64,000 nucleotides of DNA from Bacteroidales bacterium. Its GTDB lineage: Bacteria > Bacteroidota > Bacteroidia > Bacteroidales > Marinilabiliaceae. The notes below the pieces were generated by a model. It was not told the DNA's origin and did not search any database. It saw only the letters and a program-made list of their open reading frames with translations. The DNA lies in contig JAFYCM010000070.1 of NCBI GenBank assembly GCA_017539645.1, positions 1 to 64,000 of the forward strand. The letters are read 5' to 3'. Both the position numbers and the translations under genes were made by a program. Positions 27,830 to 50,991 of the stretch are shown here, in pieces; position 1 is the first letter of the stretch, and each line of letters begins with the position of its first letter.

Positions 27830-27837
27830 TTATAAAC

Positions 27838-32745: not shown

Positions 32746-33178
32746 GGTAGAGCACGCCATTCGTAACTCAAAATTTGCCAATTACTAGTATGGATAATGA
32801 CTTGATGATGTCGCTAAAAGTGGCGCATTCGTCTTGTTGCATACATACAATTCGTAACTCGTAACTCATACGTATACAGATTGGTATGAGTATTGCATAC
32901 GAGCCAATTTGCGTTTGCCAAACGAATAATTTGGCGAAAGCAAACCTCTAAATTGCAGATGCGTTTTTGCGCATTCGCGGTCAAAACAATGCATTATGTT
33001 TGATGGGAACGATTCTATAATTATTCAAAAAAATAGTAATGGATATTATCACAAGCCCTATAAATAGGGACATTTTTGTAAAAAATCCTTTCAAATAATA
33101 GTTTTTGAGTAAATTTGCATGTTTATTTCTGTCAAATTACGAAAAATATAAAGTTAACTCTATATATATCAATTGATT
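32746..33178. other. Gap of about 430 bp upstream of the giant adhesin gene
   Basis: No gene is supported. The region starts with a purine-rich GGGTAGAG stretch, then ATTCGTAACTC copies at ~32759 and ~32850. Two hairpins follow: GCCAAA-7 nt-TTTGGC near 32917, and ATGCG-T5-GCGCAT near 32959. A -7 box lies at 33110. It probably contains the promoter and leader of the type IX secretion operon. Confidence 0.5.
33110..33117 (+). promoter_or_regulatory. Putative promoter -7 box for the giant adhesin operon
   Basis: TAAATTTG fits TAnnTTTG and is 61 bp upstream of the ATG at 33179. TTTC at 33089-33092 is a poor -33 candidate, 17 bp upstream. Confidence 0.5.
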
Positions 33179-36100
33179 ATGAGTTGCAAAACGAAAATAT
33201 CGGCTATCGTGAGACTGTTCTCGTTAGTTCTTTTCTTGTTTTTTGCTATTGATTCATTTGCGCAGTTCAATCTTGGAACTAAATGCTATGATGTGTCTCT
33301 TACTGCGGAGAATAATGCGGTTTACATATTTTCAAATGGTGAATCACAAGGTAGTCATGTCGACTATAGTAACTACTATACTGGTAAGAAGCCTCAGAGT
33401 ATAACAGCGAGGATAATTTATGCAGGAGGTGAAAGCGTTGATTTATCTGATAATATATCAAAAACTCTCGGTAGTTACTTCTTTTATGAGACAACAGGTA
33501 CTGGCTCGAAGGAACGTTTGAAGACGTTAGCAATCTTCCCTACGTATGGCTTGCCTACAGAATATTTGGGTCAAACGCTTGAGTTTACTGTCGTATTGGG
33601 TACTGGCGCTGGTCAAGTGACTGAAACTTTCACTCTTGAAGTTGTTGGTGCTCCTACTGTGCAAAATTTGAATGATGAATTTGTTCTAAATGATGGAACA
33701 GGAGCATATGAGTTGGCGGTATGTCAAGGTGATGAGTTTACAATCTCGATAGGAAACTCAGACCATCCATTTGCTACGGCAGAATCGAATGTTTCTTATC
33801 AAGGAAATGAATATAAAGCTACTTATAGTTGGCGCTTGCAAGATGCAATGACGGGCGTTACTTCGGTGTATAAGGATAATGCAACATCGTTTGATGTTAC
33901 AGATATGACCTCAGGCGATGACACGAATATCTTCTTGTTTACACCATACGTGTACTTGAGCTCGGGATGTTCGGTACGTATGTCTGATTTTGCGGTTCTG
34001 TATAGTGCTCCTATACATACTACGGTGAAGTTCAATGGAGTTGAGGGTAATGCATTTGAAGTCTGCGATGAAGATGAAGGCACTGTAGCATTCTCTTTTG
34101 TAAGAGATGGATACGCCTATACTGAAGTCAAAATAATGCTTACAGCGACAAATGATCAAGATGCTACTACTTTGGATTTTGGCGAAGATTCGGGAGGTAG
34201 CGAGTTGTCATTCTCGCTTGGGGAGTTGAAATCTATAAATGGTCAAAACACTGTTTATACATTCCATTATACGACAATAGATACCGATTCTAATGGTGCA
34301 GATTGTACGAAAACCGGCACTTTTACTGTTACGGTAAAAGAGAAAAAGGCAAAGATTACAATGCCTACCCTATCAGACATATGCGAGGGTGGCACTATAT
34401 ATCCAACAGCTACTGTTGAGGGTAAAACCTATTCTGACTACACATTCAGTTGGAAATATGGTAGTACTGAATTCGCAACGGGTGTTTCTGGTTCGTATAC
34501 ATTTGCTGATGGCATCTCTGGTGATCAAACACTTTCGTTCACAGTGTCGAACGATGGTTGTGATATTACCGAAGCAACTACAGTTTATGTAAATGCGCGC
34601 CCAGTTATTACACCGAGTGCCGATGTTGAGATTTGCTATGGTGAGTCTACCCCATTAGAGGCAATCTCGAATACTCCTGCCGAATCGAAACATGAAGCTT
34701 CTGCTGGTACGACATTTACATGGTCGCCTGCTGGAGGCACGGAATCGACAACGGGAGATAAATCGACATATACCGTAGCGCCAACAACAACTACTACCTA
34801 TACTATAATAGGTAAGAATAACGATACGGGTTGTACGTCGAAAGAGGCATCAATTACGGTTACTGTCAATCCTCTGCCATACGTAACTAAGATAGATCCT
34901 TCATCATGGACGCTTTGCCAGAAAGATCAGTCGGTTACGTTGCAAGCGAGCACTGCTGGTGGCACTGGCTCATTTACCTACAAATGGTCTTGGTCTGATG
35001 ATGATGGCTCGCATTCGGAAACAACAACAATACCTACACTTACTATAAATAGCATAAACGCCTCAACGCCAGTTAAGATTTATCTAAAACTTATCGACGG
35101 AAAAGGTTGTAATAGTAGCGTAGACCCCGACTTCAATATTACGCTGACCATGAGTCCTAAGCCAACAGTGAATGTTGATGATTTCACAATGTGCGATGGA
35201 ACAACTGGTTCAGGTGTAATTACCGATTATGATGCATCGAATACATACTCGGTTTCTGCTGTAACTCCTGGTGCTCCTGCTGCATCGATTACAAGCGGTG
35301 TATGTTATGTTAACTCTAACCTCGGCATAACTGCTGAGTCTAAGTATACATATAGAGTTAAGGTTACAACTGGAAATGGTTGCTCGACAGAAAAGGATTT
35401 CGATGTGACCATCAGTCCTATGCCAAACATTACTGCTGCGTCAGACAAGTCGCTCTATTGTGTTGGTGAGTCGGTTAAACTTACAGCGTCGTCGACTACG
35501 CCAAACGTCTCATACTCATGGCGCGATAATGCTGATAATGAGATAGCTACAACGGCCAATAAAACACTGTCGTCGTTGACAGTTGGTAATTACTCATATA
35601 CATTGGTAATTACTAACAAGACAACGGGTTGCCAAAGTAAAAAGACGGTGACCTTCTCAGTTGTAGATGTTCCTGTTAAGCCAATAATTACTGCTACTCT
35701 TGATGTTATTTGCAGTGGCGATGCTTCAAAATCAACCACTCTTACTGTGACGAACGCCGAAAGTGGTGTTACATATAGTTGGTACAATCAAGCTAATACG
35801 CTTGTAGGCTCGGGTAATTCGCTCACGCTAACTCCTACTGCAACAACTACTTACTATGCAGTTGGTAAGAATGCGAATGAATGTCTATCAGTAAAATCTG
35901 AGGCGGTTACGGTTAACTACTATGAGAGCCCTGTAATTTCTGCAAGCAAAACAACGTTTGATGTTTGTAAGAATAACTCGCAAACTCTAACTGTAACAAC
36001 TTCGTCTACAGGTACTTTGGTATATCACTGGTCTGATGGCGCTGAAACTACCATGGGAACTCACGACGTAACTCCTACATCTTCGGTTTCTACATATACC

Positions 36101-39100
36101 GTATATGCTGAAGATCAGACTACACATTGTACCTCAAATACCATCACTTTCACTGTAAATGTTTATAGCATTGGTGATATAACGATTGCGCCTACTGAAC
36201 AAAATGTCTGCATTGGCAACGAGGCGACAATCACGGTAACTGTAACGCCTTGGACAGAAGATGATAAGCATACTTTGGCTATAAATGAATACGACCAATA
36301 TGGTAGCGTTTCTGAAGGATCTCACAATATTCACAGTGGTGTTACCGACAAATTCGTAGTCAAGGCAAATCATACATATAGCGTTTATGCATTGGTTGTA
36401 AATGGAGATGCATTGTGTTGGGAAAAACTCGATGCAGGCATAACCATGTTTGAAGAACCAGACTTCACAATCTCTGGCGAAACTGAAACTTGTGTTGGTG
36501 GTTCGTTGACTTTGTCTCCAAATGTTAAGAATCCACTTGCTACATATACATATCAATGGTATCATGGTTCTACGCTTGTAGGCACAACGGAGACCTTGAC
36601 GATCAGCAATGTAACAGCAGCGGACGCTGGTGAATATTCATTGACAATAAGTGCTCCTGCTGCAAATTGCTCAACTACCAAGAGCGTTAATGTTGTTGTG
36701 AATGCATTGCCTGTACCTACGATAGATTCTAAAGACCAAATCTGTAGCTCAGGTAGCACTACTATAAAAACCACTACCAATTACGCTTCATACGTATGGA
36801 ATGTAAATGGTGGTAGTGACGTAACTGCTTCAACTCTAACGCTTAATGGCGATGATTATGCTCCTGGAAGCACAGTAAATATCAAAGTTGTTGTAACTGA
36901 TGCTAAAGGTTGTGTGAGTGCGCCTGTAACTAAGAATGTTTATGTTAAGCAAGAGGTTGTTATCACTGACGCCAACAGCACCAAAGATTTGGCTTGCATC
37001 GGTTCGTCGGTAACATTGAGTCCTACTGTGACTCCAGTTGCTACTTATACCTATGATTGGTCAGAGTCGACTGGAAAAATCGATTTGTCGGGTAAACATA
37101 CTGCTTCGATAACCATCGATGATTTGGCTTATCCAACTTCTGGTTCTACTTATACGGTAACTGTTACTGCTACTGATGCTGATAACTGTTCCGCATCGTT
37201 CGACTATACTATTAATATGTATAAAGTCGAAGTTGCTGTAGACGGATCAACCAACGCATGTAACAATACTACAGAATCAATCTCTTGGACGGCAACAGCA
37301 TCGGTTAATCCTACGATTGCTGCTACCAATAAATATGACTTCGTACTCTACAATTCGGCTAATACAGTTGTATACTCTATTGTCGATCAAACGAGCAATG
37401 TATATACCCTGACCGCATCGCAAGTTCAGGCACTTGCTGAAGGTAAATACACCATAGTTGCTACTGCTCACGCCAACATTGGTGGCAGTTCGGTTTGCGA
37501 AGGCACTTCTGAAGCATTCGACCTTACAATCTACGCTAAGCCTGATGCTACTTTGTCTTCAAATATGCCAACTTGTATTGGAGATGAAATAGCGTTCACC
37601 GCTGTAGCTGGTTATGATTCTTATGAATTCCGAGTTAATGGAACAGCAGTTCAATCTGGTTCTAAAAACGTATTCAAGAGTTCATCTCTCAATGCAGGTG
37701 ATGTTGTTACAGTGACGGTTGCAAGTTCAACTTGTCAGGAAACTTCTGAGCCTTCAACAGTAAGCTATTTAGCAGAGTTTGCTCCTACTTATACCGTAGA
37801 TAATACTGTCGTATGTAAAGGTTCTTCTGCTACAATTAATGTTACGAGCACCACGCAGAAGATTTCTCACGTGAAAGTTCTTCGCGATGGCGTTGCTATT
37901 GTTGATGAAGACATAACGCCTGCGCTCACATATAAATATGTATGCGACAATGTGGTTGCAGATACAGATATTCGCCTCGAATACACAAGCGAAAATAATT
38001 GTGCTGCTTCGTCGGAATACACAGTCAAGGTTTACAAGGTTGATGTTGATGTAACTGGCTCGACTACAACATGTAACAATACTACATCTCCTGTATCTTG
38101 GTCGGCTGCTGTAACTCCTGTTCCTGTTGCTGCTGATTCATATACATACGATTTCGCTCTCTACGATGCTACAAATACAGCGCTATTCAGTGTGACTGGT
38201 CAGACGAGTGAAGATTTTATTCTCTCTGCATCTGATGTTCAGACGCTTGCTGAAGGCAACTACAAAATAGTAGCTACCGCTCACGCTAATTTTGGCGGTA
38301 CCACTTGCGATGGAACATCTACAGCATTCAACTTGAAAGTTCTCTCTAAGCCTGATAATAGCTTGGATTCAAATATGCCAACCTGTATCGGTGATGCGAT
38401 TACGTTCACCGCTGTAGCTGGTTACGATTTGTATGTATTCTATGTAAATGATGTAATAGCTCAGTCGAATGCAAGTAATACTTTCACAAGTACAGACCTT
38501 GCTGAAGGCGATAAAGTATATGTGAAGATTACGAGCGCAAGTTGCGAAGAGGTTTCTGAAACGAAGACAGTTAGCTATTTGCCAGAGTTTAATCCGACAG
38601 TTTCGGTAGACAAAACGCTTATTTGCAAAGGCACAAGCGCAACATTCACTTGCATAACAAGTACTCAACTTATAGCGAATGTTGATGTATATGTTAACGA
38701 TGTGAAGGCAGACTCTCAGACATTATCGCCAAACGCTACTTCATTTGCTTGGGCTACCTCAACTCTTGACAGCGATGCACGTGTTCGCTTCGAGTTTACG
38801 AGCGAAAATGGTTGTAAAGCCTCTTCTGCGGAGACTACCATTGAGGTCTCTCAGATGAATATTGGTACTATCGATGGTGCGTCAACCTCATGTCGCGATG
38901 GTTCTGCTACCTACACTATTAGTGGAACTTCAGTTATGCATGGCGCAATAGATAATTTCGTTGCTAATCCATCTGATTATACATATTCATACGAATTGAC
39001 TATCGATGGTGTTGCTCAGCCAAATCCAACTTCGACTACGTCAACTGTAGATTTGACTTTTGCCACAGCTGGAGAATATAAACTCACCGCAACTCTCACT

Positions 39101-42100
39101 GAGGTTTCTACTGGTTGCACAAGTTCTACTACTAAGACAATCAATGTTGTAGAGTTGCCATCGTTCACCGTGACGAGCAGCTATACTAAGGCTGGAGACG
39201 GTAAGTATTACGTATGTTCAGATCAAAACTTTGACCTCACAGTTATCGGCGGTATGACTGGCGACAGACTTAACTTGGAGAGCGCTACTCATGGTAAACT
39301 TACCTTTGATGTTAATGTGGCTGCTTCGCTCACAACTACCGACGATAAGGTGGTAATTGCCGCTGATGGTTCTGGTAAATATCTGTTTACATACGCCGAT
39401 GACGCTAAGAATGTAGATGACACTTGGTCTATCACGCTCGAAGGTGGAACGACGGATTGCGTTTCGGAGGTTACTACTATTACCGTACATAATTACGCTC
39501 CTATTAAGATCTCTGTTCCTGCTCCGTATGTAATTTCAGGTAATACGTTGCAGCTCTGTCTTGGTAATACGGCGACAATCTCAGCTACTTCGTTGAGCGA
39601 TGATGCTACACCTACATATAACTTCTCACTCGACGGAGGCGCCGCTGTGGCTGGAACTTCGTTCTATGTTACCGGTACTACGATAGGTACTCACACTCTC
39701 ACTGTAACTCATGAGAATGGTTGCTCAGTTGAACTCACTATAGTTACATTGAATGCGCCTAATCCTGATGCTACTGTTGAAATATATAATGCAGAAACCG
39801 ATTCGTATAATGCAGCACCATTTAGCACTTCATACTACGAAGTTTGTTCTTCAGATGTGTTGAAGCTAACGGCTACCGGAGCAAGTGCATACACGCTCTC
39901 TGTTGACCGTGATGGCGTAGATGTAACATCGATGTTTACCTCTTCGTCAAGTGATGCTACGTTTGCTCAATCGCTCTCGTTGCCATACGATGAAGCATCG
40001 GCTGGTGGAAAAGATTATAGTACTTACACTCTTACCTATTCAATGTCAGTAGGTACTTGCTACGATTCGAAAGTTGTTGTAGTTCGTTCGTATGTAATGC
40101 CTGACATTACGCTCACCGCTTCGGCTACTACAGCTATCGAAGGTGACGATATTATATTTACTGTTACTCCAAATACTTACGCTAAGTATGAGTTCTATTT
40201 GAATAATACTAAAGTAAGTACCGATGATACACAAGCGACTTACACTTTGAGCAACATTCATACTGACACTACTATGGTTGTAGTTGTTACGAATGCTTAT
40301 GGTTGCTCAGTGACGAAAGAAATTTCAGTGGTAGTTCTCGACGAGATTCTTCCTCGCGATGTGCTCACAAGTGCAGATTACTACTGTGAAGGCAGTGGTC
40401 CTATCACTATCAGCGTATCTAACCCACAACCTGGTGTTACATATGTATTGAATAATTGCGCATCATGTGCTCCAATAGAATGCACTGCTGCCAATCCTAA
40501 TGTAGAATGGAATGTGTTTATTGACGCTGGTACTCCAATACCTGGCGTGAATGGCGTTTCTCAAACCTACAACGTAACTGCTTACTACACGCAACTTCCT
40601 GGTTTGGTTATAGATATGAATAACTCTGTAACCATTTCGGAATATGTGATGCCGCAAGCTATTGCCATTACTCCTTACAATCAGACATATAGCGACTGCT
40701 ACGTTTCAGACGCTCGCATTATTCGCGTGCCAAACTCAGAAGTAAACGTTCGCTACTATCTTATGTATGATGCCGATTTCGATGGCGATTACGACATGGA
40801 AATGGGTCCGATAAAAGGTAATGGCTCGATACTCGACTTCAAGGTTGCCGACAAGGTTGGTCAGTATAAAGTTGTCGCATATCAATTCGATATCAACAAT
40901 GGCGGCCTCCTTTGCCCAGTAGACCTTGATGGTTATGTGAAAGTTGAGTTGCCAAACTTGACAACCTTCACCGCATATTCAGACCCAGCTAACGGTAACT
41001 TCTGCTCAACTGGCGACGGCGTAAATATTGTCCTCAATGGCTCTGAGATTGGAGTTACCTACTATTTGATGAAGGATAATGATTACATCATTTCTGGTGC
41101 AGATACTACGAAACTTGCTGGTACTGGTAGTTCAATAACATTCGAGAATATCAAGGTTGCTGGTACATATTCGGTGATGAGCCTCAACAAAGGCTGTCTT
41201 GTTCCTATGGATGGTTCAGTTGATCTTACTGAATATGCAGCACCTATCGACTACGATTTCTCAGCAACTCACGATGGCTTCTTCTGCTCTAATGCTCCAG
41301 GCGTTGAACTCTCTGTTGCTGGTCAGCAAGATGGTTATCTGTACACCTTGTATCGCAACGGCATAGAAATACTGTCAGTTCTTGGCGATAATTCTGGTAC
41401 TTCACTCCTGCTCTCCGATACACTTACAGTTGCTGCTAATTACAACGTTCGCGTATCTATCCCGAGTGTGGTTGGCGGCTGCGATTTGTGGCTATCCGAC
41501 ACTGTTACGGTAACTTCAAAAGAACCTAGCGATATCGTTTCAATTGGTCTTGGCGATGATGCGGTATCTGAACTCGTAGTTTGCGAAGGCGAGACGGTTA
41601 ATCTCCGACTCTTTGGTACAACGCCAGGCGCCCGTTATCAGCTCACTTATGTCACCCCAACTGGATTGCAACTTACTTATGGTGTGATGCAAACCGCAGC
41701 AGACAATTATCTCGATTTCTCTATCGATCAAGCTGTTGGTGCTGTTGAATTCGGTGTTATTTCTGAGACTGATTACTTCAATAAAGATGGTATTCGCGTA
41801 TTGACTTGCGAACTTACCTCTACACGTAGAGCTAAACTTGTTGTGGTTAATGGCGTAAATGCTGGTGGCGAGATTGTCTCTCACGAAACTCCTGCTGACG
41901 TTACCGACGAATGCTACGGCGAAGACATCATTATTACTGGTGCTCAATCGCAATACCAAGTTGATGATGTAGTAGTAGATTATAAATATACACTCTATCG
42001 CTACGAGAACTTGACTGGCGATAACAACACTGGCAATACTGCTAACTATAGCCAGGTATCTATGAACAATTCCCCATTTGTTGCAACTGGAGATCCTGCT

Positions 42101-45100
42101 CACGATAGATTCTTGAATATCAAGAATAACAATGGTACTTATATGATTCAAGTATCCAATGGCTATTGCTCCGCTTGGTTACCTAATATCATTAATATTA
42201 CAAGTGATAAGTTTGTAACACAGCAAAATGTTATTGTTGATAAAGAAGTTTGTCATGGTGATCCTGGTAGCATTGTAACTCTTGCAGCTACAGAAGTTGG
42301 TGTTACTTATACTCTTATGAAGGCTGTAGGTACAGTCGGCGATGATGACGATATTCAACTGGGTGTAGCTTACACCGCTGTAAATACTGATCCATACGTA
42401 TTTGCAGATGCTAATAACAATCCTATCCGCGTCTCTCAGACAGGTACTTACTATGTGATTGGCGTTAATTCAAACTCTGCTACGCCATGTCCTACACCAA
42501 TGGGTGACTTCAATTTCGTCTCTCATGCACTTCCTAAGTCATATCAACTTGTTGGCAAGGAAAATTACTGTGGCTCTGAAACTGGCGTTCAACTCTTGTT
42601 GTCGTCGAGCGATGTAAATACTACTTATACTCTCTACAAGGTTGTAGAAACTTCTGCAGATCCAGAACTTCTGCCAATAAGCTCAGTAATTGGTACTGGT
42701 GGTGAAATAACATTCCCTGAAGTTTCTGCTGGTATATACACCGCTACTTCAATCAATAAGTATGGTTGTACCTCAAGTATGGACGGTGTAATTGAGGTTA
42801 CCAATAGCCCTGTCATTGCTCCTGTTTATGCGATGAGTGATGCTGTGGTTTGCGATGGTCAGTACACATTCATATACGAGGCTGCTAATATGGTTCCAGG
42901 TCTTACATATTACCTCGTGAAGGGTAGTGCAAGTCCAGAAGTTGTCGACACGGCTGTAGTTGCTTATATGCAATTCAAGGCTACGTCGCCGGACTTCGTT
43001 CAAAACCTTACGGAAAGCGGTCTCTACACCATTTGGGCATCGTACGACTACTTTGCTTGTGTTCAGCAAATCGACCAGTTCAATTTGTCTGTTAATAATA
43101 TAAAGGTTCACAACTTGCTTGCTGCCGATGATAAGTGCGATGGTAAGTTTACCGTATACCTTGAAAATGTTGATGCTGGCGTAGATTACGATGTAGAGTT
43201 CGTACTCAAGAATGGTGTTGTTTCTCCTCGCCAATCTCTTGAACTCGATGATAATAATAAGTATTCTGCAACCTATCTAAATGGCGTAGATGTGGATTAC
43301 GCTGTGGCTTATGCAACTACTCCAAGTGGGTGCAATGTGCCAATGGCTGATACAGTTTATGCTCATGTTTATGCAGAAATAGCTGATCCAGTAGACGCTA
43401 CGCTTGCTGATCTCACCATCTGCGATGGCGGCTCTGCTACGTTCACTTATGCAAGCGCTAACATGATGAAGGGTGTAACATATTACCTTGTACGTGGAAA
43501 TAATGCACCAAATGCCAATTCTGCGGCTATTGTAGATACAATCGTAGCTGATGGCGTAAGAGATTTCGAAGTTGAGATAGTTGCCGATGACACTTACACA
43601 ATTTGGGCTTCTTACGACGCATATAACTGCTTGCAATACCAGAATATCTTCAATGTTGTTGCAGAAACTGCTACGAAGCATTACATAAAACCAATTGCCG
43701 GTTCTTGCGATGGCACTGTTGTGGTTGCTCTCGACGGTACTGAGGCTGGTATTAAGTATCTCATTGACATTACACTCAAAGATGGTGTTGTTGAACGCAA
43801 TACTCTCGATGCTACAGGTTCGTATACATATCTAAACGGTGCTAATGTTGACTTCGTATCTGTATATGCTCTTACGGCTAATGGTTGCGAAATACCAATG
43901 GATGTGAATGTTCCTGTTACAGACATCTACGATGGTTCTGTAATAGCAAGAGTCGGTAAGACTTCCGATATTACCATTTGCAGTGGCGCAGCTGCTCAGT
44001 TTACATACGACGCGGCTAACATGTTGCCTAACTTGACCTACTACTTGATGAAGGGCAATGTTAGTCCTATTGCCGATGCTACTGCGATAGTTGCTCAGCA
44101 TACTGCTGATGGCGCTAATATGGAGAAAGTCTTGACCTCTGGCGGTGTCTACACCATCTGGGCATCGTTCGATTCATACTCATGTATGCAACCTATCGAC
44201 ACATTCAATGTCGTTATGATGGATGTGGTTAAGAATCGCAACGTGAATACGGTTGCTTCTTGCGATGGTTCGATGAAGATTGAACTCGACGGTCACGATG
44301 ATGATATTACTTACAAAGCATACTTCTATTTGAACGATGGCTCAGTAGAGGTTCACGAACTTGTCGATGGCATATATGTATACCAAGATGCTGCTAATGT
44401 TGACCACGCGGCTGTGTATGCGTTGTCTGCTTCTTGCGATAGCGTTCAAATGGGCGCTGACGTTACTCCTAAGTTTGTGGAAACTGTAACTGGTGAACTT
44501 GCCTTCTTCTTGAATGGCACGGAGGTTACCGAAAAAGCTGCTGAAGTATGTATCGGCTCGAGTGTTTCGTTAATCGGAACTGCTTCTGTAACAGCTGATA
44601 ATTACATATTCAAGTTTGTTACACAAACCGTCGACACGGCTACGGCATCTCTTGTTGATAAGGTCATTATGACTAAGACTTCTAAGAGCAACATATTTAT
44701 GCCTAAGAGTTATGAACTTGAATCTTTGGGCGAAAACAGTAATTATGGTAATGTCACTGTAATACTTGGTGTAGAAGCTGGCGAATGCGGCGCTGATAGT
44801 GTTGCTTCATTCACGTTCTCAATCATCAATCCAGTGATGAGCGAGCAACGCCTCTTCGCTAAGGCCGACACGACCGAGATGCGTAAAGTACGTTTCGAAA
44901 GTGATACCGTTCACGTTCACTATTGCGAAGGCGACTTCGGTGTGAAACTCTTCTACTCTCGTGCAGTTAAGAACGAAATCTATCGTTTGTACAAACAAGC
45001 CGACTCTACGATGGTGGCTGACGAAATCCAAGATATTCAGGAAGTGCCAATGTACTCTGATTATGATGTGATTAGTGAGTTGTACTTCGATGGTTGGGGA

Positions 45101-46792
45101 TTCAACGCTGGCGATTCGCTTAACTATGCTGATGCTGGTACGTACTATGTAGAATTCTATAACGAAACGACCGGTTGTACGCAGAGAACTAATACGATTA
45201 CAATCGTGATGGATCCTTCGCCTATCGATACTACCAACAATGTATACTACATGTTTATCTCTGACGATGGTAAGGGAGAATGGCATCTCGATACTAAGAA
45301 TGAAAATTATGGTTTGATTGGTGGTTCGGTTGTTCTTGAGAATCCTAAAGCAGGTGTTACTTACGAACTTGTTTGCGCTGAACTTGGTGATCAAGCTCTG
45401 CAGCGTAAGACAATTGCCGATGCCGATTTGTATCACAACCTCGTCAAAGGCTCTGCAGTTCCGTCAATACACTTCGATACTATTAGCGTCGAAGGAACAT
45501 ATATGATTCGCGCTATCGATGATATTACCGGTTGCGACGATTATCCAGGAACTGTTGAATTCGTTGAAGATGAACTTATTACATATGATGTCTTCCTCTT
45601 CTTGGGTAAGGATGATAACGTTATCTATAAGAACCTTGTACCTAATTTAGGTTCTAAAGGCAATCATAAGTACCTCGATTGGAGTTCGAAGATTGACGTT
45701 GTTTGGCAGCCAGTAATTAACGATACGCTTAAGACTCAAGGTGCTCCAGAAATGAGAGAGGTAGAAGACGACGAATACGAAAAGTATGTAGCAGATTCAA
45801 GGGGCAACAAGACTGGTTATACAGCGTTTGCAAATAAGGCTAATATCGAGTTCTATTTCGCTCCCGTTACAAAGGTTCTGAAGACTGTTAAGTCAGTAGA
45901 TCAGGTATCAGATTCAACGCTTGTAACGAGCTATACTTATTTCACAACGTTAGTCGATACGGTAAGTGTTGATTTGAATGCTGAGTATGCTGAAGGTTGC
46001 GACTCTGTTCAGTTAGACAATGGCACATATCAGTATTATACTCCATTGACTGGTGTAGAGAAGTCAACTATTCTGAGTGTAGCTTATGATACTGTAAGCA
46101 ATAAATACTCTGCTTCTATTGAAGAAATTATCAAGAATAAGTTAGCTGAGTATGCACTTGGTTGCGATTCTGATAAGGTGGTTCGTTATACATACTTCAC
46201 AAAGAATGACACTACCTGGAATACTTCGGTGGTTCGAGATTCTATTTATGGTGAATATGGTTTCTACAACTTGGAAACGCTCGATTTGGAAAAAACTTCT
46301 TCTAAATCTGGTTGGTTCAAGTATACACGTCGACCTCGATTCTATGGCACCGAAACTATTCCATATTATGCTGTGAATAAGTTGATGCCGTCAATTCGAC
46401 GTTCGAATACCTCGCACATTTATGTTCATTGTGGTAATGAGGATACTGGTATCGAGGGCGTTACGTTCACTTTACCGAATGCTTTCTCACCAAATGGTGA
46501 TGGATTAAATGATACTTACAAGATTGTTATGCCTGGCAATATGACATTCGACAATACAAGATTGAAAGTATATAATAGGTGGGGAACATTAGTTTATGAA
46601 TCGTCTGGCACGCAATATGGTGTAGATTGTCCGTTCTGGGATGGTACGTCAACAACATCGAATATGGTTACTGTCGGCTCGCATCTGCCTTCAGGTACAT
46701 ACTTCTACGTATTCCAGATAGACTTTATAGATGAATCGTCAGGTTTAACAGCCCATAAAGAACTACATGGATATATTGAACTCAGAAGATAA
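33179..46792 (+). CDS. Giant (4537-residue) secreted adhesin-like protein with gliding-motility / type IX C-terminal domain
   Basis: A protein of about 4500 residues with a signal peptide (M-S-C-K-T-K-I-S, cleavage after S-F-A-Q at ~29). The TTG six bases upstream is rejected in favour of the ATG at 33179. The body is a long chain of Ig-like/PKD-like modules, each with a C-x-G-x-x-x-x-(I/L/V) start such as V-C-K-G-S-S-A-T-I and D-T-Y-T-I-W-A-S-Y. Two internal duplications are evident: a ~273-residue pair (37221-38035 and 38036-~38850) and a ~180-residue triple (~42835-44470). The last ~105 residues (F-T-L-P-N-A-F-S-P-N-G-D-G-L-N-D...Y-N-R-W-G...G-T-Y-F-Y) are the gliding-motility-associated, type B type IX sorting domain. 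By analogy with SprB it is predicted to be exported and held on the cell surface, acting in adhesion or gliding. Confidence 0.9.
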   Translation: MSCKTKISAIVRLFSLVLFLFFAIDSFAQFNLGTKCYDVSLTAENNAVYIFSNGESQGSHVDYSNYYTGKKPQSITARIIYAGGESVDLSDNISKTLGSYFFYETTGTGSKERLKTLAIFPTYGLPTEYLGQTLEFTVVLGTGAGQVTETFTLEVVGAPTVQNLNDEFVLNDGTGAYELAVCQGDEFTISIGNSDHPFATAESNVSYQGNEYKATYSWRLQDAMTGVTSVYKDNATSFDVTDMTSGDDTNIFLFTPYVYLSSGCSVRMSDFAVLYSAPIHTTVKFNGVEGNAFEVCDEDEGTVAFSFVRDGYAYTEVKIMLTATNDQDATTLDFGEDSGGSELSFSLGELKSINGQNTVYTFHYTTIDTDSNGADCTKTGTFTVTVKEKKAKITMPTLSDICEGGTIYPTATVEGKTYSDYTFSWKYGSTEFATGVSGSYTFADGISGDQTLSFTVSNDGCDITEATTVYVNARPVITPSADVEICYGESTPLEAISNTPAESKHEASAGTTFTWSPAGGTESTTGDKSTYTVAPTTTTTYTIIGKNNDTGCTSKEASITVTVNPLPYVTKIDPSSWTLCQKDQSVTLQASTAGGTGSFTYKWSWSDDDGSHSETTTIPTLTINSINASTPVKIYLKLIDGKGCNSSVDPDFNITLTMSPKPTVNVDDFTMCDGTTGSGVITDYDASNTYSVSAVTPGAPAASITSGVCYVNSNLGITAESKYTYRVKVTTGNGCSTEKDFDVTISPMPNITAASDKSLYCVGESVKLTASSTTPNVSYSWRDNADNEIATTANKTLSSLTVGNYSYTLVITNKTTGCQSKKTVTFSVVDVPVKPIITATLDVICSGDASKSTTLTVTNAESGVTYSWYNQANTLVGSGNSLTLTPTATTTYYAVGKNANECLSVKSEAVTVNYYESPVISASKTTFDVCKNNSQTLTVTTSSTGTLVYHWSDGAETTMGTHDVTPTSSVSTYTVYAEDQTTHCTSNTITFTVNVYSIGDITIAPTEQNVCIGNEATITVTVTPWTEDDKHTLAINEYDQYGSVSEGSHNIHSGVTDKFVVKANHTYSVYALVVNGDALCWEKLDAGITMFEEPDFTISGETETCVGGSLTLSPNVKNPLATYTYQWYHGSTLVGTTETLTISNVTAADAGEYSLTISAPAANCSTTKSVNVVVNALPVPTIDSKDQICSSGSTTIKTTTNYASYVWNVNGGSDVTASTLTLNGDDYAPGSTVNIKVVVTDAKGCVSAPVTKNVYVKQEVVITDANSTKDLACIGSSVTLSPTVTPVATYTYDWSESTGKIDLSGKHTASITIDDLAYPTSGSTYTVTVTATDADNCSASFDYTINMYKVEVAVDGSTNACNNTTESISWTATASVNPTIAATNKYDFVLYNSANTVVYSIVDQTSNVYTLTASQVQALAEGKYTIVATAHANIGGSSVCEGTSEAFDLTIYAKPDATLSSNMPTCIGDEIAFTAVAGYDSYEFRVNGTAVQSGSKNVFKSSSLNAGDVVTVTVASSTCQETSEPSTVSYLAEFAPTYTVDNTVVCKGSSATINVTSTTQKISHVKVLRDGVAIVDEDITPALTYKYVCDNVVADTDIRLEYTSENNCAASSEYTVKVYKVDVDVTGSTTTCNNTTSPVSWSAAVTPVPVAADSYTYDFALYDATNTALFSVTGQTSEDFILSASDVQTLAEGNYKIVATAHANFGGTTCDGTSTAFNLKVLSKPDNSLDSNMPTCIGDAITFTAVAGYDLYVFYVNDVIAQSNASNTFTSTDLAEGDKVYVKITSASCEEVSETKTVSYLPEFNPTVSVDKTLICKGTSATFTCITSTQLIANVDVYVNDVKADSQTLSPNATSFAWATSTLDSDARVRFEFTSENGCKASSAETTIEVSQMNIGTIDGASTSCRDGSATYTISGTSVMHGAIDNFVANPSDYTYSYELTIDGVAQPNPTSTTSTVDLTFATAGEYKLTATLTEVSTGCTSSTTKTINVVELPSFTVTSSYTKAGDGKYYVCSDQNFDLTVIGGMTGDRLNLESATHGKLTFDVNVAASLTTTDDKVVIAADGSGKYLFTYADDAKNVDDTWSITLEGGTTDCVSEVTTITVHNYAPIKISVPAPYVISGNTLQLCLGNTATISATSLSDDATPTYNFSLDGGAAVAGTSFYVTGTTIGTHTLTVTHENGCSVELTIVTLNAPNPDATVEIYNAETDSYNAAPFSTSYYEVCSSDVLKLTATGASAYTLSVDRDGVDVTSMFTSSSSDATFAQSLSLPYDEASAGGKDYSTYTLTYSMSVGTCYDSKVVVVRSYVMPDITLTASATTAIEGDDIIFTVTPNTYAKYEFYLNNTKVSTDDTQATYTLSNIHTDTTMVVVVTNAYGCSVTKEISVVVLDEILPRDVLTSADYYCEGSGPITISVSNPQPGVTYVLNNCASCAPIECTAANPNVEWNVFIDAGTPIPGVNGVSQTYNVTAYYTQLPGLVIDMNNSVTISEYVMPQAIAITPYNQTYSDCYVSDARIIRVPNSEVNVRYYLMYDADFDGDYDMEMGPIKGNGSILDFKVADKVGQYKVVAYQFDINNGGLLCPVDLDGYVKVELPNLTTFTAYSDPANGNFCSTGDGVNIVLNGSEIGVTYYLMKDNDYIISGADTTKLAGTGSSITFENIKVAGTYSVMSLNKGCLVPMDGSVDLTEYAAPIDYDFSATHDGFFCSNAPGVELSVAGQQDGYLYTLYRNGIEILSVLGDNSGTSLLLSDTLTVAANYNVRVSIPSVVGGCDLWLSDTVTVTSKEPSDIVSIGLGDDAVSELVVCEGETVNLRLFGTTPGARYQLTYVTPTGLQLTYGVMQTAADNYLDFSIDQAVGAVEFGVISETDYFNKDGIRVLTCELTSTRRAKLVVVNGVNAGGEIVSHETPADVTDECYGEDIIITGAQSQYQVDDVVVDYKYTLYRYENLTGDNNTGNTANYSQVSMNNSPFVATGDPAHDRFLNIKNNNGTYMIQVSNGYCSAWLPNIINITSDKFVTQQNVIVDKEVCHGDPGSIVTLAATEVGVTYTLMKAVGTVGDDDDIQLGVAYTAVNTDPYVFADANNNPIRVSQTGTYYVIGVNSNSATPCPTPMGDFNFVSHALPKSYQLVGKENYCGSETGVQLLLSSSDVNTTYTLYKVVETSADPELLPISSVIGTGGEITFPEVSAGIYTATSINKYGCTSSMDGVIEVTNSPVIAPVYAMSDAVVCDGQYTFIYEAANMVPGLTYYLVKGSASPEVVDTAVVAYMQFKATSPDFVQNLTESGLYTIWASYDYFACVQQIDQFNLSVNNIKVHNLLAADDKCDGKFTVYLENVDAGVDYDVEFVLKNGVVSPRQSLELDDNNKYSATYLNGVDVDYAVAYATTPSGCNVPMADTVYAHVYAEIADPVDATLADLTICDGGSATFTYASANMMKGVTYYLVRGNNAPNANSAAIVDTIVADGVRDFEVEIVADDTYTIWASYDAYNCLQYQNIFNVVAETATKHYIKPIAGSCDGTVVVALDGTEAGIKYLIDITLKDGVVERNTLDATGSYTYLNGANVDFVSVYALTANGCEIPMDVNVPVTDIYDGSVIARVGKTSDITICSGAAAQFTYDAANMLPNLTYYLMKGNVSPIADATAIVAQHTADGANMEKVLTSGGVYTIWASFDSYSCMQPIDTFNVVMMDVVKNRNVNTVASCDGSMKIELDGHDDDITYKAYFYLNDGSVEVHELVDGIYVYQDAANVDHAAVYALSASCDSVQMGADVTPKFVETVTGELAFFLNGTEVTEKAAEVCIGSSVSLIGTASVTADNYIFKFVTQTVDTATASLVDKVIMTKTSKSNIFMPKSYELESLGENSNYGNVTVILGVEAGECGADSVASFTFSIINPVMSEQRLFAKADTTEMRKVRFESDTVHVHYCEGDFGVKLFYSRAVKNEIYRLYKQADSTMVADEIQDIQEVPMYSDYDVISELYFDGWGFNAGDSLNYADAGTYYVEFYNETTGCTQRTNTITIVMDPSPIDTTNNVYYMFISDDGKGEWHLDTKNENYGLIGGSVVLENPKAGVTYELVCAELGDQALQRKTIADADLYHNLVKGSAVPSIHFDTISVEGTYMIRAIDDITGCDDYPGTVEFVEDELITYDVFLFLGKDDNVIYKNLVPNLGSKGNHKYLDWSSKIDVVWQPVINDTLKTQGAPEMREVEDDEYEKYVADSRGNKTGYTAFANKANIEFYFAPVTKVLKTVKSVDQVSDSTLVTSYTYFTTLVDTVSVDLNAEYAEGCDSVQLDNGTYQYYTPLTGVEKSTILSVAYDTVSNKYSASIEEIIKNKLAEYALGCDSDKVVRYTYFTKNDTTWNTSVVRDSIYGEYGFYNLETLDLEKTSSKSGWFKYTRRPRFYGTETIPYYAVNKLMPSIRRSNTSHIYVHCGNEDTGIEGVTFTLPNAFSPNGDGLNDTYKIVMPGNMTFDNTRLKVYNRWGTLVYESSGTQYGVDCPFWDGTSTTSNMVTVGSHLPSGTYFYVFQIDFIDESSGLTAHKELHGYIELRR

Positions 46793-47766
46793 TGCTAAGG
46801 ATTATGTGCAAAATGGATATTAATATGAAGTCAATATCTCGATATATATTAATCATAATTGCTCTTGGCGTTACCTCAATTTGTAATGCTCAAGATCAGG
46901 TGGTATACAATAACTACATATCCAACCAAGGTATACTCAACCCGGCTTATAATGGCACGCGCGATAACATTAGCGGTCTTGTAATATTCCGCAAACAGTG
47001 GATAGGTTTCAAAGGTGCTCCATTCACTGGTGCGCTCAACGTACACAGCCCGATTGATGCGGTGCAAAACTTAGGTCTTGGTCTTGTAGTAGAGAACGAC
47101 CACATCGGTTTTACCAACAACCTTGCTGTGAATGTGGCTGGTTCGTATCGACTGAAATTGGCTCATGGTATGACACTCGCTCTTGGTCTACAACTCGGTT
47201 TCAAAAACGTGTTGTACGATGGTATGAAAGCTATGGTAGTCGACTATGGCGACCCAGTTTTTGAAGGTCGTATAAGTAAGTTCGGTTTCAACTTTGGTAC
47301 TGGTGGCTATCTCTATACCGACAAATTTTTTGCCGGTCTAAGTATACCAAAGTTCTTCTCGAACAAATATGACACCGACAAACAAGAGATTAGAAACGTA
47401 GTTCGCTTCAAAGATGTGCATACATATATCTATGGCGGTTATATCTTTGATGTTGACGATATTCTTATAAAGCCTACAGGTTTGGTTCGTGTTGTTCCTG
47501 GAGCTCCGCTGACGCTTGATGTGTCGTGCTCTTTCAAGCCGATGAAAGATAACGACTTTTGGGTAGGTCTCTCATACAGAACGGTTTCCGAAGTCGTATT
47601 TATGGCTGAATACAGAATAGACCGAAAGTGGACAATTAAGTATTCATTCGATTATTCAATTAGTGATATTCAAACTTATGCTAAGGCTGGTTCACACGAA
47701 GTGGGTTTGCAATTCGACTTCTCACCGAAGCGCCGCCCAGGTATTCGTTCAATGCGTTATTTCTAA
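46792..47766 (+). CDS. PorP/SprF family type IX secretion membrane protein
   Basis: A 324-residue outer-membrane beta-barrel of the PorP/SprF family. The mature start D-Q-V-V-Y-N-N-Y-I-S-N-Q-G-I-L-N-P-A-Y-N-G-T-R and F-R-K-Q-W-I-G-F-K-G-A-P are strong signatures. The barrel ends with an aromatic residue after R-P-G-I-R-S-M-R-Y-F. The ATG at 46792 overlaps the stop of the adhesin gene (TAATG), indicating coupling; an alternative ATG at 46825 (M-K-S-I-S-R-Y-I-L) gives a neater signal peptide. In Flavobacterium, SprF is needed to export SprB with a type B sorting domain, so this is probably the dedicated partner of the preceding adhesin. Confidence 0.93.
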   Translation: MLRIMCKMDINMKSISRYILIIIALGVTSICNAQDQVVYNNYISNQGILNPAYNGTRDNISGLVIFRKQWIGFKGAPFTGALNVHSPIDAVQNLGLGLVVENDHIGFTNNLAVNVAGSYRLKLAHGMTLALGLQLGFKNVLYDGMKAMVVDYGDPVFEGRISKFGFNFGTGGYLYTDKFFAGLSIPKFFSNKYDTDKQEIRNVVRFKDVHTYIYGGYIFDVDDILIKPTGLVRVVPGAPLTLDVSCSFKPMKDNDFWVGLSYRTVSEVVFMAEYRIDRKWTIKYSFDYSISDIQTYAKAGSHEVGLQFDFSPKRRPGIRSMRYF

Positions 47767-47794
47767 AATTCTAAAATCTTTGACCAATCCTCAT

Positions 47795-49894
47795 ATGACA
47801 ATGAAATCAATTTACGCTATTTTATCATTGTTCGTTTTATGTGCTCTATCTATAGATGCTTCAGCTCAGAAAAAGGAGCTAAGGCGAGCAAAAGCTTTCT
47901 ACGATGACGGCGAGTATTATCAAGCGCTCTATTATTATAGCTACGCTTTGGAACTCGGCGGTGAGTTGTCTCTCGATGACAAGAAGAATATTGCAAGGTC
48001 GCAGTATTACTTGAATGATATTGACGGAGCTTATGACTCATTCCAGAAACTCGAAGAATCGCTGTCTGGAGATGACATTTTCCTCTATGCATCGACTATC
48101 CACCAATTCGGTTTGTACGAAGAGGCCATTACTTGGTACGAGAAGTCGAAAGGTCAAGGCGAAACAAACACTATTCGCGTGAACGATTTGATTGAGTCGT
48201 GTCGTTGGGCATTGTCTCACGGTTCGCAGCTCGATTATCGTGTTAACCCATGCTTCGAGTTGAGTAAAAATGGTCAGTCGTTCGGTGTTCAGTATTATAT
48301 GGGCAACCAGCAAGTTGTCTACTCTTCGGCATCTGAGAATTCACGCAACGTAGACCGCTATGGTAACCCATTCTTGAATCTGTATACCTCAGATTTGGAG
48401 GGCGGCGAGGTCGTAGAAAATACAAAACGCCTATTCTCGAAGAAACTTCAGTCGAAATATCACGTAGGTGCAATTTGCTTCACCAGCGACTATAAATACA
48501 TATACTACACAAAATCGGTTATGGTCGACGATTACGACATCATGAAGATTTTTGTGGCAGAGTTCGATGGTAAAGATTGGGTTGACGAGCGAGCTCTTAC
48601 TATAAATAGTGATGATTACGACTGCGCGCATCCTGCTCTTACGCCTGATGATAAATATCTCTACTTTGTGTCGAACCGCGATGATATTGGTTACGGCGGC
48701 AAGGATATTTACTACGTAGAGCGCAAAGGTCCGAATGAGTTCGGCGAGGTAATAAATGCTGGTGGTAATATCAATACTTACGGCGACGAAGTTTATCCTG
48801 TTGTAAGTAAGGATAATAAACTCTATTTCAGCTCTAACGGACATTATGGTTTCGGTGGTTTGGATATTTTCGTTGCGGATAATGTTGATGGTAAATGGCA
48901 GAACGTACAGAACATGATGAAGCCATTCAACTCGAACCACGATGACTTCTGCTACATAATCGACCCTGAAGACTCTAATCGCGGTTTCCTTTCTTCTAAC
49001 AACTATGGCGACAATGCTGAAGACGTTATCTTCTTCGTGCGTAAGGCTACCGAGGAAGACTTCAACATCCAAGCTGAGGAGATGCCGCCTATCATGGGTA
49101 TGGAGACTCTCATGTTCAATCAGGAAGAACTCGAAGCTCAGCCTGATGAAGAGTTGACAGAACCTGTTACAGAGACAGTCGAGATGCCTATTGAAGAGCC
49201 TGTTATTGAGTCTGTTGTAGAGCAACCAGTTGTTGCAAGCGTTCAGCATCCATTTACAACAGAAGTTACAAGTACTTTCAATGCTACTAAGATTTCAGGT
49301 GCTCAGGTTACAATTACCGACGCTGCTACTGGAGAATATATAGCTTCGGCTCACACCGATACGCAGGGTCGAGTAACTATGAATCTCGACGGAAACAAAG
49401 TCAATGACAAAGGCGATTACAACGTTTCGGTGAAGAAAGATGGCTTCAAACCTAAATCTTTCCTCGCATCGCTCGAAGAGATTGACGAGTTGAAGAATAC
49501 CGGCATACAATTAACTCCGATGTTCAACAACACCGTGCTCGAAGATATAGGCGGTTTGGTTATCCCATACACCAACGAACTCACCGATGAGTCGAAAGTT
49601 TTGCTCGATAAACTTGCTGCATACTTGATACAGAATCCTACGATTGTTATCAAACTCAATGCTCATACCGAAGCTAAGGGCGTTCGCTATAAGAACTTGA
49701 GCATCTCGCAGAAGATGGCCGAGAAAGCACAAGAATATTTGATTAGCCAGGGTGTAAATGGTGACCAAGTTATCCCACGCGGCTATGGCGAGAGATATCT
49801 GTTGAATCGTTGCCATCGTGGTAAATACTGCGATAAGGCTCAGCACCTTGAAAATAGACGTATAGAAGTTGTTGTTTGGGACGTTCGCAAATAA
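47795..49894 (+). CDS. PorE-like OmpA-family protein (TPR, beta-propeller, CRD, OmpA)
   Basis: A 699-residue exported protein. The open frame begins at 47663 inside the PorP gene, but the ATG at 47795 starts the signal peptide M-T-M-K-S-I-Y-A-I-L-S-L-F with cleavage near A-S-A-Q. Order of domains: TPR-like helices (~20-150), PD40/WD40-like propeller blades (~170-440, e.g. C-A-H-P-A-L-T-P-D-D-K-Y-L-Y-F-V-S-N), an acidic P/E/V linker (~450-510), a carboxypeptidase-regulatory-like domain (~510-600) and an OmpA peptidoglycan-binding domain (~605-699, with N-A-H-T-E-A-K-G and R-R-I-E-V-V-V-W). This is the architecture of PorE, which ties the type IX machine to the cell wall. Confidence 0.9.
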   Translation: MTMKSIYAILSLFVLCALSIDASAQKKELRRAKAFYDDGEYYQALYYYSYALELGGELSLDDKKNIARSQYYLNDIDGAYDSFQKLEESLSGDDIFLYASTIHQFGLYEEAITWYEKSKGQGETNTIRVNDLIESCRWALSHGSQLDYRVNPCFELSKNGQSFGVQYYMGNQQVVYSSASENSRNVDRYGNPFLNLYTSDLEGGEVVENTKRLFSKKLQSKYHVGAICFTSDYKYIYYTKSVMVDDYDIMKIFVAEFDGKDWVDERALTINSDDYDCAHPALTPDDKYLYFVSNRDDIGYGGKDIYYVERKGPNEFGEVINAGGNINTYGDEVYPVVSKDNKLYFSSNGHYGFGGLDIFVADNVDGKWQNVQNMMKPFNSNHDDFCYIIDPEDSNRGFLSSNNYGDNAEDVIFFVRKATEEDFNIQAEEMPPIMGMETLMFNQEELEAQPDEELTEPVTETVEMPIEEPVIESVVEQPVVASVQHPFTTEVTSTFNATKISGAQVTITDAATGEYIASAHTDTQGRVTMNLDGNKVNDKGDYNVSVKKDGFKPKSFLASLEEIDELKNTGIQLTPMFNNTVLEDIGGLVIPYTNELTDESKVLLDKLAAYLIQNPTIVIKLNAHTEAKGVRYKNLSISQKMAEKAQEYLISQGVNGDQVIPRGYGERYLLNRCHRGKYCDKAQHLENRRIEVVVWDVRK

Positions 49895-49925
49895 GGAGAT
49901 TATGTAAAACACAGTAATTAGCTCA

Positions 49926-50588
49926 ATGAAAAAATCGATTGTTGCAATATTGTTTGTGGCTGCCTCGCTTAGTTGCGCAGCCCAAACTACCATGAATAGT
50001 CTACGTACTAATAAGCAAATTATAACCATCGAAAACGGAGTTGGCGCTCCTAAGTACTCAATACAGTTGCTTGCCGTAGCCAACCCGCCCGAAGATGCCA
50101 ATTTCTTTGCATCGCTCGATAAGGTTTATGAATTTGTATGTTCTGATGGCTTTTATCGCTATTGTGTAGGCGACTACGACACATTTGCCGATGCTAATGC
50201 CAATGTAGACCAAATTCGATCGAATGGTTATAAAGATGCGTTCGTAGTAAATACAAAGAAACTTGGCGCATCGTCGTCTTATGCAAAAACAACGTCGGCA
50301 GCTGGTGGTAAGACACTCATTGGCGCTGGTGGTCGTAGAGTATCTATTGTAGACGACCGCGACTATGTGGTGCAATTGGCAGCGTTCCGCTATCCGGTTT
50401 ATTTGTCGTTCTTCGAAGGCATTGAGCCAGTTTACGAGTATCGTTTGAATGATAAGATATTCCGCTATACCACGGCACCTTGCAAAGGCACTGAGATTGA
50501 GCAAACACTCAACGACATGATTGCCAAAGGTTATAAGGGCGCATTCGTGGTGGAATTCGACAGATATTCACCATTCAAGATAGAATAA
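49926..50588 (+). CDS. Exported protein with two SPOR-like modules
   Basis: A 220-residue protein with a signal peptide ending near C-A-A-Q. Two similar modules follow, each opening with an aromatic-Gln strand (Y-S-I-Q-L-L-A-V and Y-V-V-Q-L-A-A-F), having F-F in the helix, a K-V-Y-E-F/P-V-Y-E-Y strand, F-Y-R-Y or I-F-R-Y, and closing with G-Y-K-D-A-F-V-V or G-Y-K-G-A-F-V-V. These are SPOR-like (sporulation-related repeat) patterns, a fold that binds bare glycan strands. Following a PorE-like gene by 31 bp on the same strand, it is probably the last protein gene of the secretion operon and may help anchor it to peptidoglycan. The SPOR assignment is by pattern only. Confidence 0.75.
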   Translation: MKKSIVAILFVAASLSCAAQTTMNSLRTNKQIITIENGVGAPKYSIQLLAVANPPEDANFFASLDKVYEFVCSDGFYRYCVGDYDTFADANANVDQIRSNGYKDAFVVNTKKLGASSSYAKTTSAAGGKTLIGAGGRRVSIVDDRDYVVQLAAFRYPVYLSFFEGIEPVYEYRLNDKIFRYTTAPCKGTEIEQTLNDMIAKGYKGAFVVEFDRYSPFKIE

Positions 50589-50594
50589 GAAATC

Positions 50595-50954
50595 AGTAAG
50601 TCGGTCTATCGCTTCATGTAAGAGGAAAGTCCGGGCAATATAGAGCACCATGCTTCCTAACGGGAAGATCGCTGCGAGGTGATAGTAGCGTAACAGAAAA
50701 TTACCGCCACGTATGTGGTAAGGGTGAAAAGGCGAGGTAAGAGCTCACCGAACGCTTGGCGACAAGAGTTGCAATACGCCTGATGGATTGTAAGACCATG
50801 TATATTCCGAAGCTTTGCTACACAGCTGCTCGTTGTGGTTGCCTTCGGGCAAGTCGGAAGGGGTAGGTCGCTGGAGGTCGTGGGTGACTGCGATCCGAGA
50901 TAAATGATAGACGCTCCTTTGGAGTACAGAACTCGGCTTATAGACGGACTGATA
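50595..50954 (+). ncRNA. rnpB: RNase P RNA (bacterial type A)
   Basis: The conserved blocks of RNase P RNA occur in order: GAGGAAAGTCCGGGC near the 5' end, ACAGAAAATTACCGCC, AAGGGTGAAAAGG, the GGTAAGAGCTCACCG hairpin, and the 3' AGATAAATGATAG and ACAGAACTCGGCTTATAG. The ends pair as P1: AGTCGGTCTAT at 50599-50609 with ATAGACGGACT at 50940-50950 (one mismatch). The RNA is the catalytic part of the ribozyme that matures tRNA 5' ends. It starts within about 10 bases of the upstream stop codon and is followed by a strong terminator. Confidence 0.97.
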
Positions 50955-50960
50955 TTTATA

Positions 50961-50991
50961 GCCTCGCTACTTCGGTAGTGGGGCTTTTTTG
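50961..50991 (+). terminator. Rho-independent terminator after rnpB
   Basis: GCCTCGCTAC, a TTCG tetraloop and GTAGTGGGGC form a 10-bp stem with G-U pairs, followed by six T residues, 7 bp past the RNA's 3' end. Confidence 0.92.

Follow-up and report, generated by a model that had tools for sequence, protein, structure and literature searches.

The means by which type B adhesins of the type IX secretion system (T9SS) become attached to the cell surface are still under study. In Porphyromonas gingivalis, a complex of PorE, PorP and a type B cargo is known (PMC9143113), and the OmpA domain of PorE grips diaminopimelate (DAP) by a bidentate salt bridge from Arg591, together with Asp576 and Asn584 (PMC7192894). 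In Flavobacterium johnsoniae, the PorE-linked type B cargo Fjoh_3952 is static and mobile cargos are not encoded with a PorE-like gene (PMC12618676), while the SprF of gliding needs a Cys-X-Cys tail that is bonded to GldK (PMC12635249). Operons with the order adhesin-PorP-PorE have been regarded as encoding putative static, wall-anchored adhesins (PMC12618676, PMC9143113). Here we describe such an operon with an additional gene for a two-SPOR-domain protein, located in a stretch of 64,000 nucleotides (positions 1 to 64,000, forward strand, of contig JAFYCM010000070.1 in assembly GCA_017539645.1, a Bacteroidales bacterium of the Marinilabiliaceae), which is called the window throughout.

Four genes on the same strand, recognized from open reading frames (ORFs) and profile matches, occupy positions 33179-50588 of the window: a gene for an adhesin of 4537 aa is followed by genes for a PorP/SprF protein, a PorE-like protein and, last, a protein carrying a pair of SPOR domains, which bears out the set and the positions given by the initial annotation. 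It is rather probable that they represent a Marinilabiliaceae form of the T9SS type B static-adhesin operon, in which the PorE-like and SPOR proteins would hold a long, non-gliding, wall-fixed fibre and the SPOR protein would mainly contact the wall. The SPOR protein as a fixed, conserved fourth partner of the known type B-PorP-PorE operon is new, and the locus points to a likely switch in wall ligand, from stem peptide to denuded glycan. The features are as follows.

33110..33117, + strand: -7 promoter-like box of the Bacteroidota type, TAAATTTG, ahead of the adhesin gene (script match to the pattern TANNTTTG; weak evidence alone)
33179..46792, + strand: giant secreted adhesin, 4537 aa, with signal peptide and immunoglobulin (Ig)-like domains (ORF; Ig_7 and CHU_C matches)
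46469..46732, + strand: type B T9SS C-terminal sorting domain of the adhesin (CHU_C, PF13585; TIGR04131)
46792..47766, + strand: outer membrane shuttle barrel of the PorP/SprF family, ending in ...RSMRYF (PF11751, TIGR03519; tail comparison)
47801..49894, + strand: PorE-like periplasmic protein with PorE-like N-terminal region, PD40 propeller, CRD-like and OmpA domains, signal peptide and no lipobox (Pfam, NCBIfam)
49574..49810, + strand: OmpA domain of the PorE-like protein, with Met as the Arg591 equivalent (42.7 bits; comparison with PorE, 6TOP)
49926..50588, + strand: periplasmic two-SPOR protein (Pfam SPOR; family alignment)
50052..50249, + strand: SPOR domain 1, with Q47 and R78 (PF05036)
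50364..50558, approximate limits, + strand: SPOR domain 2, with Q150 and R180 (alignment; missed by the Pfam model)
50593..50956, + strand: RNase P RNA (rnpB), 4 nt past the SPOR stop codon (RF00010, 221 bits; conserved neighbour)
50960..50985, + strand: intrinsic terminator-like hairpin of 11 pairs with a T tract, behind rnpB (first-listed match of the terminator scan)

The genes are closely packed, with a one-base overlap between adhesin and PorP, 28 or 34 nt between PorP and PorE and 31 nt between PorE and SPOR. The adhesin ORF (33173-46792) opens at TTG, and the ATG at 33179 gives the 4537-aa protein; the PorP ORF (46792-47766), which overlaps the adhesin stop codon, carries a signal peptide that by eye puts the real start near 46825, and the PorE-like ORF (47663-49894) likely starts at 47795 or 47801. 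As for signals of transcription, a scan for sigma-70-type promoters gave no excess over shuffles, the full Bacteroidota -33/-7 pattern (TTTG-N19-21-TANNTTTG) has no match in the window, and the 11 terminator matches of the region do not exceed the shuffle mean of 12.6.

Conservation of the locus is extensive. Within the family, SPOR protein matches occur in 67 of 71 genomes and a full-length homologue in 64, the window's genome included, and 64 further full-length loci from 63 genomes were compared with the window. The type B adhesin, PorP, PorE and SPOR genes follow one another on the same strand and in the same order in all 59 loci with enough contig, among them the window, the other six being cut by contig ends; this is the gene-order comparison that the initial annotation had proposed as a check. 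Moreover, PorP, PorE and SPOR evolve under purifying selection, with ratios of nonsynonymous to synonymous substitution of 0.007-0.20 in 22 gene comparisons from eight close pairs of loci. Because of this selection and the constant gene order, the four-gene module is not a product of chance. Seven genomes are devoid of a full-length SPOR homologue; six of them also have no rnpB match at all, suggesting an assembly gap at the locus, and the seventh (G052) has rnpB near a contig end. In the SPOR alignment, 58 loci lie in genome contigs, mostly of Marinilabiliaceae or unspecified Bacteroidales metagenome-assembled genomes (MAGs), with genera including Marinilabilia, Carboxylicivirga, Geofilum, Alkalitalea, Saccharicrinis and Labilibacter, in addition to one Bacteroidia MAG and one labelled Chlorobiota. 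One genome (G043; L080, L088) has two SPOR copies and two rnpB genes at 5% contamination and may represent two strains.

Beyond the family, related arrangements take other forms. An order-level search, restricted to E<=1e-12 and to genomes of 90% completeness or more, with scoring of seven initial candidates in each, found matches in 77 of 392 genomes, of which seven are family members, and most of the others match within a long ORF; in a phylum-level sample (genomes at least 95% complete, E<=1e-15), the window's own genome was the only match among 392. A PorE-like protein with C-terminal SPOR domains was present in 13 of 20 other-family stretches, the rest having separate, split or PorE-less SPOR genes. 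These fusions (L193, L195-L201, L204-L206, L208 and L212) carry one or more C-terminal SPOR domains, and several lie, by eye, beside a small acetyltransferase-like gene. The window's own genome also encodes an 869-aa, partly PorE-like paralogue with a SPOR domain. In G155 (L194), a member of another family, PorP, PorE and SPOR are separate genes; with the model built from the family, a type B domain was not found in the 11 kb upstream, nor was an rnpB detected anywhere in the stretch.

The adhesin is a T9SS type B cargo by its C-terminal domain, and its secretion by way of the T9SS and a PorP/SprF shuttle is predicted: CHU_C scores 69.5 bits against a cut-off of 27, and TIGR04131 scores 40 bits against 35. 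The PorP/SprF protein reaches 207 bits with PF11751 and 210 bits with TIGR03519 (cut-off 90.55), which identifies a shuttle of this family. The description of the adhesin as SprB-like in the initial annotation is borne out by the sorting domain; the Pfam scan reported no SprB-repeat model for the adhesin, and it matched Ig_7 in two stretches, together with weaker Ig-family matches.

The machinery for export is encoded elsewhere in the genome, which comprises 3.44 Mb in 101 contigs and is 97.5% complete and 1.9% contaminated. SprA (2552 bits) is over its cut-off, as are GldK (574), GldL (175), GldM (375) and GldN (197), which form one cluster with a PorP gene on contig C72, and the genome is accordingly T9SS-positive. 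In total, it has four PorP/SprF matches, five type B domains and 13 type A matches, seven of the latter over cut-off. The search for gliding genes, which covered genes other than GldB and GldH, found GldD at 220 bits (cut-off 120) and GldJ close to its cut-off of 458 (445 bits in the genome search and 456 bits in the protein scan). GldJ lies on contig C53, the first 16 kb of which deviate in composition from bases 30000-45000 (GC 0.508, tetranucleotide correlation 0.63), a possible sign of contamination or chimerism that puts GldJ in doubt as well. The same contig holds a second RNase P RNA (G000:C53:5080-5492, L254; 172 bits). Taken together, profile matches and gene order support the initial annotation where it sees a type B cargo of the T9SS encoded next to SprF, PorE-like and SPOR genes. 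The checks that it named, a search for core T9SS genes and profile searches for TIGR04131 and SPOR, were positive over cut-off. Its word "self-contained" has to be given up, because the translocon and motor genes lie on other contigs.

The PorE-like protein departs from PorE in several respects. Pfam recognizes its PD40 and OmpA regions, CarboxypepD_reg stays under cut-off (26.6 of 32.3 bits) and no TPR model is reported. The best NCBIfam matches, CHU_0125_OmpA (248 of 620 bits) and PorE (233 of 600 bits), are both under cut-off, and a simple lipobox pattern is found in none of 60 module PorEs within the first 60 residues. The equivalent of Arg591 is lost in all 60 module PorEs, being Met in 28, Ile in 16, Val in 13 and Ala in three (counts from the 60 of 65 loci in which the PorE ORF measures 600-900 aa, contig ends truncating the others). 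The Asn584 equivalent is kept in all 60, and position 576 is Asp in 23 and Glu in 37. On account of score, missing lipobox and Arg loss, an identity with PorE itself was rejected, and the protein is referred to as PorE-like only. Among OmpA domains outside the module, Arg is present in 46 of 47, the exception (L201) being ambiguous in alignment, and it is kept in all 12 that stand directly behind a PorP, including L194. Clear loss of this Arg is therefore confined, among the proteins compared, to the Marinilabiliaceae module. For these outside domains, SPOR genes behind PorE were sought within flanks of 1.5 kb around a match that itself often spans only a portion of PorE, which limits this search. 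One family locus (L067) has an extra PorE-like ORF of 467 aa between PorP and PorE.

The SPOR protein, by contrast with this OmpA domain, retains its ligand residues. In studied SPOR domains these are Q270 and R309 of RlpA and Q251 and R285 of FtsN (PMC6895207). PF05036 detects the first copy at 30.3 bits (cut-off 21), and the second is visible in the family alignment. In the SPOR profile of Pfam, Q47 aligns with position 8, which is the position of RlpA Q270 (PMC6895207), and R78 was matched to RlpA R309 and FtsN R285 by reading of the CwlC alignment. Across the family alignment, the beta1 Gln is kept in 65 of 65 sequences in both copies, and the beta3 residue is always basic (R78: 62 Arg and three Lys; R180: 64 Arg and one Lys). 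By score and by both residues, the protein belongs to the SPOR family, and binding of denuded glycan is predicted for it. The initial annotation had counted two wall-binding proteins in the operon; this count has become doubtful owing to the Arg loss in the PorE-like protein, the SPOR protein having retained the ligand residues known from its family. A simple lipobox occurs in one of 65 SPOR homologues (L069) and, as noted, in no module PorE, so that both proteins look soluble and periplasmic. In agreement with the initial annotation, which did not recognize the double SPOR protein as part of the known secretion set, no SPOR partner of PorE or SprF was found in the T9SS literature among the open-access papers in the matches listed; the only paper there mentioning both a SPOR domain and type IX secretion is one on type 2 secretion, with one mention of each.

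From these data a course of assembly can be proposed. The adhesin would be exported by the SprA translocon of the genome, powered by GldKLMN, the genes of which are present. Its type B domain would then be captured by the neighbouring PorP/SprF barrel, as published for homologues, and the PorE-like protein would hold PorP in the periplasm, as published for PorE and PorP of P. gingivalis. Judging from ligand residues, gene order and fusions, the two-SPOR protein may bind the PorP/PorE complex and tether it to the glycan strands of peptidoglycan. Because the OmpA domain is without its DAP-gripping Arg, wall contact would probably be made mainly by the SPOR protein, and the end product would be a long, wall-fixed, non-gliding fibre. 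Anchoring would thus plausibly have moved from stem peptide to denuded glycan.

Several points weigh against this reading. Co-transcription of the module genes is suggested by short gaps only. Arg loss and the operon-borne SPOR gene each trace to one family, so their correlation is without replication, and G155 (L194) has a SPOR partner and yet keeps the Arg, from which it follows that the presence of such a partner is compatible with an OmpA site that is intact. As Asn584 is kept throughout and position 576 is Asp or Glu, some wall binding by OmpA may remain. Finally, SPOR domains are common, with seven matches in the window's own genome (six over cut-off) and matches in 8 of 14 control genomes, and studied ones serve division or morphogenesis (PMC6895207), so another role of the protein is possible.

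Anchoring may still be of the canonical PorE type, with the OmpA domain binding stem peptides despite the Arg loss and the SPOR protein only adding strength. The retained OmpA match speaks for this, as do the conserved residues at 584 and 576; however, it is Arg591 that bridges DAP in PorE (PMC7192894), and an exchange for Met, Ile, Val or Ala in every module PorE, against near-universal retention outside, makes this explanation rather unlikely.

Less probable still is a role of the SPOR protein in division or wall remodelling with no tie to the adhesin, its gene standing at this place because the 3' end adjoins rnpB and includes part of its promoter. The junction itself gives this idea its weight. 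Of the 64 loci from relatives, 63 have rnpB downstream of SPOR and on its strand, the exception (G053) having rnpB on another contig, and the gap has a median of 20 nt (65 rows, the window counted twice; RNA starts are those given by the Rfam model and the nhmmer alignment rather than by mapping of ends). Outside the window's genus, 37 of 50 loci carry a TANNTTTG box that ends 4-14 nt ahead of rnpB, compared with none of 14 within the genus and 3 of 512 control stretches, and some of the 13 box-less loci outside the genus show, by eye, near-boxes overlapping the SPOR stop codon. Thus, rnpB seems mostly to have its own promoter, the canonical form of which has been lost in the window's genus. 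Nevertheless, the SPOR gene of G053 (L116, L256) still stands behind PorE with no rnpB on the contig, the order PorP-PorE-SPOR persists in G155, where an rnpB was not detected in the 3.4 kb downstream, PorE-SPOR fusions exist in other families, and selection acts on the SPOR protein. Whatever the cause, it is unusual for an adhesin operon to adjoin rnpB throughout a family, and no account tying RNase P RNA to a type IX secretion adhesin locus was found in the open-access literature, judged by title and the start of the abstract.

The weakest alternative, that the adhesin rides the GldJKN track via SprF as SprB does, with the PorE-like and SPOR proteins as accessories, is very improbable, for although the genome holds GldKLMN, GldD and a near-cut-off GldJ and the adhesin is giant and type B, Cys-X-Cys is found in the last 60 residues of 0 of 59 family PorPs (59 of 65 loci, the window's included), a motif that SprF needs for gliding (PMC12635249), a PorE-linked type B cargo is static and mobile cargos lack a PorE-like gene in F. 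johnsoniae (PMC12618676), and the contig of GldJ may be chimeric. Since the PorP tails have no Cys-X-Cys and the adhesin is linked to PorE, gliding by this adhesin is unlikely, and the suggestion of the initial annotation that a cell with this module could glide was set aside for it (PMC12618676, PMC9143113). With GldD and the near-cut-off GldJ, gliding of the cell by other means is possible. One PorP tail of the family (L121) contains a single Cys. Other families likewise show ends of the type x-R-[YF]-F in PorPs that are linked to PorE; as the C-terminal Phe may be no more than a barrel-assembly signal, a docking motif is not claimed.

Returning to the SPOR-anchored static adhesin, a more far-reaching form of this reading can be offered as speculation, with a rather low chance of being correct: the SPOR protein would have taken over wall attachment from the OmpA domain of PorE, the adhesin would sit on denuded glycan instead of stem peptides, and in the window's genus rnpB, deprived of a promoter box of its own, would be transcribed as the last part of the operon. 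Denuded glycan is enriched at division sites, so the chemistry of the wall would in that case direct the adhesin to septa and young poles, and its position on the cell would be predictable.

Family adhesin ORFs that close within their stretch number 36, of which 33 span 2147-4539 aa and three are shorter (322, 1038 and 1398 aa); two of the three lie 28 and 132 nt behind another long ORF, a pattern as from broken genes or assemblies. In the window, the ORF upstream (27799-32745) encodes 1648 aa with a signal-like N-terminus; it was set aside as a module member because it has no Pfam match at E 0.001 and because a homologue is missing from the stretches that represent the 64 family loci, many of these stretches ending before the far side of the adhesin. 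A gene of about 219 aa that starts with MHYTK or similar is, by eye, the closest ORF ahead of the adhesin (140-720 nt before it) in 22 of the 28 loci for which an upstream ORF was recorded (L078-L124). The window's genome has a second giant ORF (L009; G000:C92:1-16383) of at least 5095 aa, which is truncated where the contig stops; it encodes a type B domain, and a gene for a divergent PorP lies behind it. A PorE-like gene was undetected in this 20 kb stretch.

Several known systems share parts of this design. GhpA, the grappling hook protein of Aureispira (PDB 9flp, 5898 aa), is a giant chain and the only solved-structure sequence to match the type B domain region (E 5e-6), the comparison covering the sorting domain only. 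SprB-SprF of F. johnsoniae likewise combines a type B adhesin with SprF directly downstream (PMC12618676), but its SprF has the GldK-bound Cys-X-Cys tail (PMC12635249) and no PorE-like neighbour (PMC9143113), the module being the reverse in both. RlpA, FtsN and CwlC belong to the same SPOR family, with the ligand-binding Gln and basic residue; unlike them, the module protein consists of two SPOR domains behind a signal peptide, has no Pfam enzyme domain and is encoded in a secretion operon. In the PG1035-PorP-PorE system of P. gingivalis, a PorP barrel likewise retains a type B cargo, with PorE as the anchor to the wall (PMC9143113), although that PorE is a lipoprotein (PMC9143113) with a DAP-binding Arg591 (PMC7192894), whereas the module PorE has neither lipobox nor Arg and is joined by a SPOR protein. 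Another published operon is Fjoh_3952-3951-3950 of F. johnsoniae, with the same order of cargo, PorP (SprF-like shuttle) and PorE-like gene and a static putative adhesin (PMC12618676); compared by its description, neighbouring genes aside, it differs from the module in that the accessible part of PMC12618676 mentions no SPOR partner, which in the Marinilabiliaceae is the fixed fourth member.

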